Positions 42,722 to 50,084 of a DNA stretch of 64,000 nt are shown here, piece by piece. The position numbers and the translations under genes were made by a program. The first letter of the stretch is position 1. Each line of letters starts with the position of its first letter. The notes beneath the pieces were generated by a model. That model saw nothing but the letters and a program-made list of their open reading frames with translations. It had not been told where the DNA came from and made no database searches. Origin of the DNA: Desulfitobacterium dichloroeliminans LMG P-21439 (GTDB lineage: Bacteria > Bacillota > Desulfitobacteriia > Desulfitobacteriales > Desulfitobacteriaceae); assembly GCF_000243135.2 (NCBI RefSeq), contig NC_019903.1, positions 720,001 to 784,000 on the forward strand. Direction: 5' to 3'.

Positions 42722-43690
42722 ATGTCAGACCAAAGAAACAAAGTACTTAAACAGTTCTCACAAGAATATAAACGAACAGATGATGGTTTTCATAAGAAGG
42801 TACACGGTTATTTTTACTTAAGGTATAACAAGCTATATGTTTATCTTATGAAAATGGGCTTGAATAAGATGCTGCCGAAGCCTCACAAACTGGTGATGCC
42901 TCCAGGAGAGCATAACAAGGAAGCCATGGAAGCTGTCAGTATGTTTGCAAGCCATACTGGCAGAAAATCCATGAGCATTGAAACCAGTGATTATCACGCC
43001 AAGGTTTTACGGGTGGAAGACGCCGCCAAGTTTTTCAAGCTGGAACAAGACCTGAACTTGCCAGACCTCCCCAAGACGATTATTCCCTTTGAGGTTGCGC
43101 GTAAAACAATTATCAAAAATCCGGAAAGCCTTTGCGTAATCGATTGTCCTTGTCGGGAAGCTCGTGGTGAAGAAGGATGTTATCCTCGCGATGTTTGTCT
43201 AGTTTTAGGTGAGCCGTGGGTCAGTTTTGCCTTGGAATACGGTGAAGAGAGCAATGCGCGCAGAATCACTCAAGAGGAAGCCCTACGCATTGTGCATCTA
43301 CAGCATGAGGCTGGTAATGTGCACTCCATCTTCTGGAAGAGCTCGCAAAATGATCGGACATATGCCATGTGCAATTGCTGTGCCTGTTGTTGTACAGCCT
43401 TGCAAGGCCATAACTATGTTCATTCTCCAATGATGGCCAGCTCCGGATACAAGTGCGAGGTGGATATAAAACAATGTATATCCTGCGGAGCCTGTACCGA
43501 ACATTGCAACTTCTTTGCTTTGGAAATCAAGGACGGCACACTTTCCTATCAACCTGAAAAATGCTACGGATGCGGTGTTTGTGAGTCGATATGTCCTAAT
43601 GGTGCGATTACAATGCGCAGAGACGACCCCTTGATCTCTGAACCCCTTGATCTAGATGTACTCATTCCGAAGTATACACCCAAGGAGTAG
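42722..43690 (+). CDS. 4Fe-4S ferredoxin-domain protein
   Basis: 322 residues. An N-terminal region without motif, then CPCREARGEEGCYPRDVC and a dense CNCCACCC cluster. Two ferredoxin-type [4Fe-4S] sites follow near the C-terminus (CISCGACTEHCN and CYGCGVCESICP). Similar proteins are common in anaerobes beside redox operons; probably an electron carrier for the ATP-dependent reductases. Confidence 0.85.
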   Translation: MSDQRNKVLKQFSQEYKRTDDGFHKKVHGYFYLRYNKLYVYLMKMGLNKMLPKPHKLVMPPGEHNKEAMEAVSMFASHTGRKSMSIETSDYHAKVLRVEDAAKFFKLEQDLNLPDLPKTIIPFEVARKTIIKNPESLCVIDCPCREARGEEGCYPRDVCLVLGEPWVSFALEYGEESNARRITQEEALRIVHLQHEAGNVHSIFWKSSQNDRTYAMCNCCACCCTALQGHNYVHSPMMASSGYKCEVDIKQCISCGACTEHCNFFALEIKDGTLSYQPEKCYGCGVCESICPNGAITMRRDDPLISEPLDLDVLIPKYTPKE

Positions 43691-43720: not shown

Positions 43721-44068
43721 ATGCATGAACTGCCGATTATGGAAGATGTCCTCAATATCGTAGTTGATTTTGGCCTGCGTAACAACGCAAATAAAATCGT
43801 AAAAATCAACCTTCGAGCCAGTGCACTGTCAGGTATCATTCCTAAATGGGCGACTATATTTTTCAAGATGATCTCTCGGGACACCATAGCCCAGGACGCC
43901 ATTCTTGAATTTGCAATCTCCCCAATCAGAGTGAATTGCCGAGACTGCTTTCAGGAAAGCGATATTCAAACGAATCCACCGGTTTTTGTCTGCAGTGCTT
44001 GCGGTTCAGACGAGGTGAGTATTCTTTCCGGCAGAGATCTACGCATTGAAAGTATTGGAATTTTATAA
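43721..44068 (+). CDS. hypA: HypA nickel/zinc metallochaperone
   Basis: 115 residues starting MHE, so the nickel-binding N-terminus and His2 are intact. Zinc site CRDC (about residue 74) and CSAC (about residue 91). Normally hands nickel to NiFe hydrogenase with HypB. It stands at the end of this CoA-ester operon with no hydrogenase nearby. Confidence 0.92.
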   Translation: MHELPIMEDVLNIVVDFGLRNNANKIVKINLRASALSGIIPKWATIFFKMISRDTIAQDAILEFAISPIRVNCRDCFQESDIQTNPPVFVCSACGSDEVSILSGRDLRIESIGIL

Positions 44069-44092
44069 TGCTTGAAAGCTGAGGGGTTAGAT

Positions 44093-44764
44093 ATGAACGA
44101 AATAAGAGTCATAGAAATTAAAAAGAGCATCCATGAGAGCAACAACTTGCAAGCTGATGAACTGCGTAGTATTTTGCACAAGAAACACACATTTTTGCTC
44201 AATTTAATGTCGTCACCTGGCTCCGGCAAAACAAGCCTGGTAATGAGGACTATTGAGAAGCTTGATAAAGATCTTAAGATAGGGGTTATTGAAGCAGATA
44301 TTGACTCCACTGTGGATGCGGAAAAAATAATAGAGGCAGGCGTACCAGCAGTACAGCTGCACACAGGCGGTATGTGCCATATTGATGCCACTATGACAGA
44401 AACCGGATTAGAAGCTTTAGATGTAGACAATCTCGACTTGATTATTCTCGAAAACGTTGGTAATCTTGTCTGTCCGGCAGAATTTGATACAGGGGCCTCG
44501 AAAAGTGCCATGATCCTCAGTGTGCCGGAGGGCCATGATAAGCCTCTCAAATACCCTCTGATGTTCTCCATGGTAGATGTGCTCATCATCAGTAAAATAG
44601 ATTGCCTTCCTTATTTTGACTTTGATGTCAGAGCAGTGAAGGAGAGCGTTAAGAAGCTTAATCCAAATATCGAGATATTTGAAACTTCGGCCAAAACAGG
44701 AGAGGGCTTTGATCAGTGGGCGGATTGGCTGCGAAAAGAAGCCTTGGCCTGGCAGCAGGACTAA
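44093..44764 (+). CDS. hypB: HypB GTPase
   Basis: 223 residues from ATG 44093 (GAGGGG upstream). P-loop MSSPGSGKTSLV, metal-site Cys-His in GGMCHIDATM, Cys in GNLVCPAEFDTG and the base-specificity SKIDCLPY. The N-terminal Cys-rich high-affinity nickel site of E. coli HypB is absent, as in many Firmicutes. Last gene of the operon, followed by a terminator. Confidence 0.93.
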   Translation: MNEIRVIEIKKSIHESNNLQADELRSILHKKHTFLLNLMSSPGSGKTSLVMRTIEKLDKDLKIGVIEADIDSTVDAEKIIEAGVPAVQLHTGGMCHIDATMTETGLEALDVDNLDLIILENVGNLVCPAEFDTGASKSAMILSVPEGHDKPLKYPLMFSMVDVLIISKIDCLPYFDFDVRAVKESVKKLNPNIEIFETSAKTGEGFDQWADWLRKEALAWQQD

Positions 44765-46435: not shown

Positions 46436-46792
46436 TTGAGACAAACAATCAGAATATTTATCTTGGCGATTCTGTTGTTTTGCCTATTACCAATTATGGT
46501 CTTAGAGTTGATTGGCGGACAACAATTTAATCATCTAGACATGGGCATTATCGTAATTGCCTTGCTCGTTTTAAATCCTATTTTTTTTGCAACAGTAGGT
46601 TGGAAAATAGCATTTGAGAATAAAATAAAATGGTTGATACCAATTATCTGTGTTGCAATCTTTTTCATAAGTGCTTATTTTATTTATGGGATGAATGAGT
46701 GGTTTTATGTTGGAGAATATTTGGTTATAGCGTATTTGAGTATTTTAATTCGTACTCTGATAAAGTATTTTAACAAAATGGGGGAGGTATGA
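46436..46792 (+). CDS. Small four-helix membrane protein
   Basis: 118 residues from TTG 46436 (GGGAG upstream). Four hydrophobic stretches and few charges. No family recognised. Its stop region contains the ribosome site of the following selenoprotein-like gene, so translation of the two is probably linked. Confidence 0.65.
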   Translation: MRQTIRIFILAILLFCLLPIMVLELIGGQQFNHLDMGIIVIALLVLNPIFFATVGWKIAFENKIKWLIPIICVAIFFISAYFIYGMNEWFYVGEYLVIAYLSILIRTLIKYFNKMGEV

Positions 46793-46794
46793 GG

Positions 46795-47580
46795 GTGATA
46801 GACTTAAATCAGAATCATATTAATCTCACCACCACGTCTAGTTGTTGAGTGCCAGCTTCTAGTGCTGGTCAGCACAATACTGAGAACTGTCAAATCTGTG
46901 GAGGGCAACTACAATACTTCAATTCAGGACGAGAATTAACTTGTGTTCAATGTGGAAAAAGCGAGATTGGCAACATCTCTTGCCCAAACGGACACTACGT
47001 ATGTGATGAATGTCATGGGAAAGGTCTTTTCGACACGGTTAAAGAATACATGTTAGCCAGTCAATCAACGAATCCCTTCGAAATTGCCGAGGATCTAATG
47101 AATCAAGATAACATCCCTATGCTCGGTTGTGAAAATGCCTGGATAGCATCTGGAGCTTTGATGGCAGCACTTAAAAATGAAGGAACGATTAATGTTAGCG
47201 ATGAACAGATTGTTGAAGTTCTTAATAGGACCAAGAGACAAGCTATCGGAGGATATTGTGGACTAACAGGGGTATGTGGAATCGCCCCCGCGATGGGTGC
47301 TTGCTTTAGTGTTATTCTTGGTGCGTCTTGTCCTAAAGATCAAGAAACAGCGACGACAATGAAGATCGTAGGAAAGATAGTTTACGCTATCGCTGAACAA
47401 ACTGGTCCATGTTGCTGTAAGAACTTTGTGAGAACTGCATTGAGCAAGGCGATTACATCAGTTAAAGAGCGCCTTGATGTATGCTTGCTTTCGTCTAGCG
47501 AAGCAATCGTGTGTACTCACAGTTCGCGTCATCCTCATGGATGTAGGGAGTCTAAGTGTTCCTATTTTAAATCAAGCTAG
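46795..47580 (+). CDS. DUF5714-type Cys-rich protein with in-frame UGA, probable selenoprotein
   Basis: GTG 46795, 7 nt after GGGGAGG, opens a frame that reads TTTSSC, then TGA (46846-46848), then VPASSAGQHNTENC to the stop at 47580: 261 residues with Sec at position 18, next to Cys17 (a C-U pair). Without readthrough only the GTG 46849 directly after the TGA is left, with no ribosome site. A SECIS-like hairpin follows the UGA at the E. coli fdhF distance. The rest has zinc-ribbon pairs (CQICG, CVQCG, CPNGHYVCDEC) and the GGYCGLTGVCGIAPA core of DUF5714. Function unknown; seen beside methyltransferases in anaerobes. Confidence 0.75.
46846..46875 (+). promoter_or_regulatory. Bacterial SECIS-like element
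   Basis: After the UGA, 18 nt lead to the loop GGUC (46867-46870) closed by the perfect stem GUGCU/AGCAC (46862-46866, 46871-46875). In E. coli fdhF the loop GGUCU also begins 18 nt after the UGA, and the loop G and U are what SelB recognises. Confidence 0.7.
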
Positions 47581-48065
47581 AGGTCAAGTAAAGATAATGT
47601 AAACTTTATGACCTGTGATATATTTCGTATTCGTGTGATAGTGCGTAAATAATAACGTGTATAATGTGAGCTGAGGGAAAAGATTTTGATTAGAGATTTT
47701 TTTAAAACGGATGAATCCTATAAGATACAAGTCGCAGAGTACAAAAGAAAAGATGCCTTTACGGCGATAGTTGTCTGGGCAGTAGTAATGGGTATATATT
47801 ATTTAATGGGACAACTATATGCCAATAATGGTGTATATCTAGGGATACCGGTTAACTTAGTGCTGGCAAGCTTATGTATAGCTTTAGTGTTGCTAAGAAA
47901 AGAAAAAATGACGACCATTGGTTTTACTAGAAAAAATGCTTTTAAATCTATCGTTCTGGGCTGTAGTTTAGGATTAGTATTAGTTATTGCAAATAGCGTT
48001 ATGAATATCATTTGGGGCAGTCAATTAGCTCAGATTCAGGGTATTTTAACAAATTTTATTTACTA

Positions 48066-49721
48066 CCTAAATTCCACGTGTGTTTTTTATTAGCTTCAAA
48101 AATCACTATTTCACGAAGAATTTAGACTGCTTCTCACACATTGTAACATTATTTACAACCACCTTTCAATCATTTTTGATAAATCATTGATTTCATCTTT
48201 GCTGCAATGATACTTAATAAACTCTGCAAGTTATCCACAGAGCAACACTCAATTTTATTGATGATATTCTTATTATACCAGACATTTTTCATACACTCCC
48301 TTGTACGGATAGTTTTCCGACAACTTCATGATTACATATCTTGCGGTTTTGATTATTTTTGCTGCAAGAAATACATACTTCAAACGAAAGGTCTTTATTT
48401 GCTGTCTGTATTCTGAAGAGTCCAAGGAATCAAACTTGAACAACAAAAATAGGTTATATGAAAGCATCATCATTTGAAACACGGCTTCATTCGCCCAAAA
48501 TGACTTTAGCAAGAGATGACCCACCGCCATGTCGTATTTGGCTTCTTTGATATAGTTTTCAGCATTACCACGCTTTTCATAGTATATAACTACTTTTTCA
48601 GAAAGCAAGGTAGTATTTGTTACAAAGAAAAAGTAGTCGTATTCGGAACCTTCTAAAAGTGATAATTGTGCTCTTTCTTTTTCTGGTTTCAGTACGCGAG
48701 ATACGACAAATCTTCTGTCTTTTTCCCATTTAACTAATTTTGTATACAGTTCTGTAGTTTCTCTACCTTCTTCTCCTTTAACGAATACAATTGATGAATT
48801 CGTTGCTTGTGAGGTGAGTGTAGAATAACTTTTGGCTTTAATTAAATATTTGCATCCAAGAGATTCTATCGTTTCGATAATTTTTTCATCAAAGTAGCCA
48901 CTATCCATTCGAAATAAAATTTCTAAATCGTCTGATTTGATGTTAGCAACAATTTCTTTGATCATTTCCGCAGCACCGTTTGCAGTGTAAGTATTGCCAC
49001 TTCTTACAAATCCGGTAACATATGCTTTTAATTCGTCGCAAAATGCAAATTGGATATTGTAGCATCGGTTTCCCAGTTTCTTAGGATTATATCCTTTTGA
49101 CGCACCTTCTTGATGACCTTCTACGTTAATTACACTACTATCAATATCAATCGTAATGGATGTCAATTTACTTTTAGTGAGCAGTTTTTTAAAGACTTTA
49201 AAATTAATGTCTCTAAACATTTGGGTTGTCTTGAAGTTGAAGTTTCCTAGAAACCGTGACACTGTTTCAGGTTCTTTTACGGAAATATCAAACTCGTTGA
49301 CGAGGGGATCATTTTGAAGTAGCTTTAGACGTTCTAACTTATCAATGCCAATGAAGTGACCGCAGAGCATGGTCTTTATATGATTCATCTTGATTTTATT
49401 TGTTGAGTCATTATCAAATACGAGGTCATTTTCAATAAAATCAAAAATCCCATTGCTTTTTGCATTCTCAAGGAGCAGAAAAAGACCTGCATTTGATGTT
49501 AGATTCTTAGCTTTGAAATCAATTTTATTAATCATAATTAGAACCCCTTTTTACTACTTTTCTTACTATTATTTTACCATATATCGAGTCATAAAAGCTG
49601 ATAATTTAACATATTTTTGAGCACTTTTCTTTCACCCAATGGGTGAAAGCTGAATTTCGAAGGAACGCATATTTATCAAGGCTTTGATTATGCTTTTTGA
49701 AGTACTGACGTAGAATCTAGG
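48066..49721 (-). mobile_element. IS1380-family insertion sequence (1656 bp)
   Basis: Left end CCTAAATTCCACGT (48066) and right end, read inward, CCTAGATTCTACGT match 12 of 14. TACTA stands on both sides (48061-48065 and 49722-49726) as target duplication. One full-length transposase gene lies inside on the minus strand. Confidence 0.92.
48273..49535 (-). CDS. IS1380-family transposase
   Basis: 420 residues. DDE elements: the IDIDSSVINVEGHQEGASKG segment, FRMDSGYFDEKIIE and YYEKRGNAENYIKEAKYDM. Full length with no internal stop. The gene is AT-rich like its surroundings. A poly-purine ribosome site lies before ATG 49535. Confidence 0.93.
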   Translation of the reverse strand: MINKIDFKAKNLTSNAGLFLLLENAKSNGIFDFIENDLVFDNDSTNKIKMNHIKTMLCGHFIGIDKLERLKLLQNDPLVNEFDISVKEPETVSRFLGNFNFKTTQMFRDINFKVFKKLLTKSKLTSITIDIDSSVINVEGHQEGASKGYNPKKLGNRCYNIQFAFCDELKAYVTGFVRSGNTYTANGAAEMIKEIVANIKSDDLEILFRMDSGYFDEKIIETIESLGCKYLIKAKSYSTLTSQATNSSIVFVKGEEGRETTELYTKLVKWEKDRRFVVSRVLKPEKERAQLSLLEGSEYDYFFFVTNTTLLSEKVVIYYEKRGNAENYIKEAKYDMAVGHLLLKSFWANEAVFQMMMLSYNLFLLFKFDSLDSSEYRQQIKTFRLKYVFLAAKIIKTARYVIMKLSENYPYKGVYEKCLV

Positions 49722-50084
49722 TACTATATGTTGGTAATCTCTCTAGTGGAGGAGATCATTTTTAGAGGATACATTCAAACAAGACTATACGGGCTTATAA
49801 AAAGACCACTCTTTGCAATTATATTAGGTGGTATCTTGTTCATGTTAATGCATATTCCGTTTCAAATAGGTTATGCAAAAATGGGGTTATTTGCCTATAT
49901 TCAAGTGAATTATATAACTTTGATGTTTACTTTTATATGGCATGTTGTCTTTGATTTCTTGTACCGTAAATACAATACAATTTATGCATCTACAATTTTT
50001 CATGGGTTAATGGATTGGGCGAATTACTTGTTCATAGTATGATGAGATAATGAACAATTACTAATTAGAAAAGAGGTGAAGGAT

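Follow-up and report, generated by a model that had tools for sequence, protein, structure and literature searches.

A stand-alone DUF5714 gene of Desulfitobacterium dichloroeliminans as a probable single-Sec relative of MbdU

The stretch of DNA analysed here, referred to as the window, comprises 64,000 nucleotides of the Desulfitobacterium dichloroeliminans LMG P-21439 genome (contig NC_019903.1, positions 720,001 to 784,000). It raises the question of whether a UGA codon at position 46846 ends a reading frame or is read as selenocysteine (Sec) and, in the latter case, to which family the protein belongs and what it might do. The original prediction had been a probable new selenoprotein of the DUF5714 type with a Cys-Sec pair. 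Our analysis indicates that the gene at 46795-47580 on the plus strand, which carries all of the gene’s features given below, very probably encodes a selenoprotein in which UGA 46846 is read as Sec. We place the probability at about 0.95, a figure that refers to the selenoprotein itself and not to its proposed function. This reading draws on a Cys-UGA pair shared by 59 genes, a covarying hairpin, Cys-Cys (CC) and Cys-Ser (CS) forms where SelB was not detected, and the Sec machinery of the host itself.

Reading frame and domain organisation

The frame is open from a GTG start at 46795 to a TAG stop at 47578-47580 and encodes 261 residues, the 18th being Sec, confirming that coding continues past the TGA as predicted. 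Directly 5′ of the Cys codon stand the codons ACC ACG TCT AGT, part of a TTTSSC stretch that ends in the Cys, and the Cys17-Sec18 codons (TGT-TGA) occupy 46843-46848. A Shine-Dalgarno sequence, GGGGGAGG, can be read at 46780-46787 and ends 7 nt upstream of GTG 46795. There is also an ATG in frame at 46789, but it lies too near GGGGGAGG, which makes GTG 46795 the better start. Downstream of the UGA, the sole start codon ahead of the first CxxC motif is GTG 46849, upstream of which no Shine-Dalgarno sequence was found, in agreement with the claim that a good ribosome site serves the upstream start only.

The Cys-Sec pair is followed by a region with the motifs CxxC, CxxC and C...H..CxxCH (residues 32-74, 46888-47016), which is invariant across homologues and is probably a structural zinc site. 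The mainly helical DUF5714 domain (PF18978; residues 82-258, 47038-47568; E = 4.1e-54) covers the whole model with 183.2 bits, compared with a gathering cut-off of 26.2. The predicted structure has an overall pLDDT of 85.5, and its Cys-Sec arm is disordered, with values below 50 at residues 13-28. A fold search with this model against the PDB and viral models returned nothing significant and hence no solved structure alike, and a PDB sequence search returned only weak zinc-motif matches.

Some features of the surroundings deserve mention in their own right. A transposase-like gene on the minus strand (48273-49535) seems to split a CPBP-type-looking membrane-protein gene into two pieces (47686-48093 and 49728-50042), and this split region (47686-50042) sits just downstream of the selenoprotein gene. 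On the upstream side, a HypA-like and HypB/CobW-like pair (43721-44764) comes after a ferredoxin-type gene (42722-43690); no hydrogenase gene was recognised among the listed open reading frames around this pair.

The SECIS-type hairpin and the Cys-UGA homologues

A hairpin of the form GUGCU-GGUC-AGCAC, with its loop 18 nt past the UGA, had been proposed as the SECIS-type element. It is found at 46862-46875 (arms 46862-46866 and 46871-46875, loop 46867-46870) and receives comparative support. The E. coli fdhF message has a GGUC-loop hairpin whose loop likewise lies 18 nt after the UGA. When this one sequence was folded alone, the minimum-energy structure favoured other pairing, with an energy no better than that of shuffled sequences (z about 0), and the hairpin must therefore be judged by comparison. 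A search of this region against Rfam gave no match.

At least five of the six stem pairs form in 57 of the 58 measurable homologous sites, compared with an average of 14 and never more than 23 well-paired sites in 1000 trials of synonymous-codon replacement; the sites come from related sequences, and these counts are thus not independent events. All six stem pairs show two-sided changes across homologues, and the covariation score of the stem is 0.560, versus 0.265 in shuffles (0 of 500) and at most 0.176 with one arm slid, a control that agrees with the codon replacement. The loop reads GGTC in 45 of the 58 sites, and its distance from the UGA is 18 nt in 44 sites, 21 nt in 13 and 24 nt in one.

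For the comparison of homologues, the N-terminus was read through at loci of 80 named genome contigs and of about 30 relatives from the phylum, with some genomes present in both collections. In 59 genes Cys-UGA occupies the corresponding position, 15-28 residues ahead of the first invariant CxxC, a count that includes the window and, like the architecture counts below, a few duplicates from genomes occurring in both collections. Among the hosts are Desulfosporosinus, Clostridium carboxidivorans, C. drakei, Moorella, relatives of Desulfotomaculum, Gudongella, Acetoanaerobium, Anaerosolibacter and one deltaproteobacterial MAG. The expectation of Cys or Sec at this position in homologues was thereby borne out. 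True CC forms were found six times (L079, L080, L082, L083, L084 and L100) and a CS form once (L089). SelB was sought in the genomes of these seven and matched in none, although they are MAGs in which absence is not certain, and the CC and CS forms of genomes without detected SelB have lost the hairpin-encoding AGQH stretch. The same search was positive in 11 of 11 Cys-UGA genomes, and SelB scored above the cut-off in all 17 Cys-UGA genomes of the phylum sample, making 28 of 28 for both searches combined. Within that sample, 14 of the 22 genomes encoding other types of DUF5714 protein (not each of them read individually) also had it. Several of the compared genomes are MAGs, where a single SelB absence weighs little. 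Most of the distant DUF5714 proteins start near the first CxxC and have no CU arm.

Two deviating cases were seen in SelB-positive genomes. At L063:5968-6741 the UGA is replaced by UCA (Ser) with the GGUC hairpin kept, so that either Sec was lost recently or the sequence contains an error, and at L036:318-380 (L036/L009) a deletion took the Cys-Sec arm together with the hairpin from a protein 82% identical to that of the window. These cases indicate that Sec is not essential everywhere.

The predicted selenium machinery is complete in the host: selA, selB, the tRNA-Sec (selC) and selD were all found in the 3.62 Mb, single-contig genome. One region holds a formate dehydrogenase gene, an fdhE-like gene, the tRNA-Sec, selA and selB, with selD located elsewhere, and the formate dehydrogenase has an in-frame UGA of its own, at ARIUHAP.

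Could the UGA nevertheless be a true stop, with the protein beginning after it at GTG 46849, as automatic annotation would have it? This codon directly follows the UGA and opens a frame of 243 residues with the entire DUF5714 domain, and distant DUF5714 proteins mostly begin close to the first CxxC. However, no Shine-Dalgarno sequence precedes GTG 46849. Of the 59 CU genes, only 11 possess a start codon of any kind at this place, and just three of those 11 have a ribosome site. A start after the UGA would also fail to account for the conservation of Cys-UGA, for the CC forms of SelB-negative genomes and for the covarying hairpin. On the evidence of the ribosome site and the homologues we rejected this start, and consider the reading as a true stop very improbable. 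A chance UGA or a sequencing error is ruled out, as the UGA is common to 59 genes.

For the selenoprotein, then, translation would begin at GTG 46795, and the hairpin at 46862-46875 would be read by SelB, with Sec inserted at UGA 46846. The product would consist of a flexible N-terminal Cys17-Sec18 arm, the Cys-rich, probably zinc-binding region and the helical DUF5714 core.

Relation to MbdU and to fused selenoproteins

Assignment to the DUF5714 family with a Cys-Sec pair was supported in all tests run, but the suppositions that the protein is new and that DUF5714 proteins had not been described as selenoproteins were not supported in that form. A 2026 review (PMC13188914) lists MbdU with the motif CU and two Sec residues, crediting Haft and Tolstoy (2025, mSystems 10:e0141724), and the first half of its NCBIfam model, NF045648, is a DUF5714 module with an N-terminal CU. 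Domain comparison describes MbdU as DUF5714 plus DUF2284. The full window protein matches NF045648 with E = 4.6e-122 over residues 13-260 and profile positions 22-268 of 468, the CU included. The scores of 408.3 and 412.7 bits lie under the 600-bit cut-off, and the alignment breaks off at position 268-278 of the 468 in the profile. The window protein lacks the DUF2284 half that carries the second Sec, and its stop at 47578 falls where DUF2284 would begin. The gene is a stand-alone, single-Sec version of the first module of MbdU and by definition not MbdU itself; it is an addition to a known family more than the start of another. What stands of the claimed novelty is that NCBIfam release 20.0, in which only the DUF2284 fusion is modelled, holds no model for the stand-alone form.

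This form is the commonest. Forty-eight of the 59 CU genes are stand-alone, two are MbdU fusions (apparently one genome twice), six are fused to an AhpD-like CEPU domain plus a CKTU tail, and three have the CKTU tail only. As long as the stand-alone form is unmodelled, automatic annotation will tend to cut the protein at the UGA and to drop the residue that is probably central to its function, and a separate NCBIfam model would mend such truncated annotation.

The six AhpD-like fusions (L054, L070, L047, L060, L008 and L011) combine DUF5714 (CU), AhpD-like (CEPU) and a C-terminal CKTU, with three in-frame UGAs per gene, and their matches to NCBIfam models are only partial. In the three genes with the CKTU tail alone (L013, L014 and L052), an inverted repeat, CCTGTTT...AAACAGG, after the tail UGA lies past the stop codon. 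The DUF2284 half of MbdU matches NF041536 (ArsM_DUF2284_UU; 1.2e-75), and the AhpD half of L054 matches NF041537 (ArsM_AhpD_UU; 5.8e-34). A search of the host genome for MduS hit only the methyltransferase part of that profile, weakly and in no case with an internal stop.

Possible chemistry and known systems

The alignment of homologues identifies C155, C161, C207, C208, C240, C250 and C255 as invariant core cysteines. Two further residues, C112 (47128-47130) and C179 (47329-47331), occur without exception in the CU and true CC proteins, while nearly all other DUF5714 proteins have Pro instead; C206 and H246/H248 occur with nearly all CU proteins and are often replaced in CC forms. Since C112 and C179 track the CU/CC type, the Cys-Sec arm probably works jointly with the core site, which offers a concrete site for tests. 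The arm would cooperate with the extra core thiols C112, C179 and usually C206, and with H246/H248, to bind a soft metal or metalloid, or to form and resolve a Se-S bond. The chemistry would be metal(loid)-related, as for MbdU and the ArsM-fused selenoproteins. We favour soft-metal or metalloid thiolate/selenolate chemistry, at roughly even odds, because the DUF2284 and AhpD partners are common to arsenite-methyltransferase-like selenoproteins, and because ArsR-type and SBF-family genes lie at three loci. Neighbourhood clustering across the homologues revealed no conserved gene neighbour, so that function rests on fusions and Cys patterns.

The main rival, possible but somewhat less probable, is that the CU arm serves as a selenosulfide/thiol redox switch without any metal substrate, in a thiol oxidoreductase or a peroxide sensor. 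A Cys next to a Sec is typical of redox sites, some relatives carry the AhpD-like CEPU domain and CKTU tail, and residues 150-230 show a weak likeness to PF09719 (C_GCAxxG_C_C, ‘putative redox-active protein’) that, at 22.1 bits, lies below the cut-off of 27. Against this, metal(loid)s are indicated by DUF2284 (‘predicted metal-binding’) as a fusion partner and by the partner domains in common with ArsM-type selenoproteins.

A role specific to arsenic or metalloid handling, in which the protein would serve a methylation or efflux pathway as carrier or partner, seems unlikely. It would accord with the NF041536 and NF041537 matches, and with ArsR-type regulators and an SBF-family (ACR3-like) transporter within 6 kb in L045, L047 and L075, accompanied in L045 by an ArsA-type ATPase. 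However, these are only three of about 44 neighbourhoods and were spotted after the fact, the SBF transporters are typed to family level, and ‘ArsM’ in NF041536 and NF041537 is an annotation and not a tested activity. No ArsR-, SBF- or ArsA-type gene was recognised adjoining the window gene, and as its protein has no fused partners, the arsenic link is one step removed. A tentative extension is that the stand-alone DUF5714-CU proteins and the three-Sec DUF5714-AhpD-CKTU proteins may form one unmodelled group, mostly of anaerobic Firmicutes, in arsenic or metalloid handling, with a metalloid site made up of the Cys-Sec arm plus the extra core thiols.

The gene can be set beside several known systems. 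In E. coli fdhF and in the Sec formate dehydrogenase of the host, a UGA is likewise read as Sec in a SelB-dependent manner with the SECIS right after it, although the proteins are unrelated. The likeness to PF09719 is weak. The PF18978 domain is shared, but most of its distant members, apart from their missing CU arm, have Pro at 112 and 179. Relatives of the window gene bear the same C-terminal Sec domains as NF041536 and NF041537 (ArsM fused to DUF2284 or AhpD) and NF045649 (MduS), with DUF5714 in the place of the methyltransferase part, whereas the window gene itself has no such fusion. With MbdU (NF045648) it shares the N-terminal CU and the DUF5714 module, to which MbdU adds the DUF2284 half and a second Sec.
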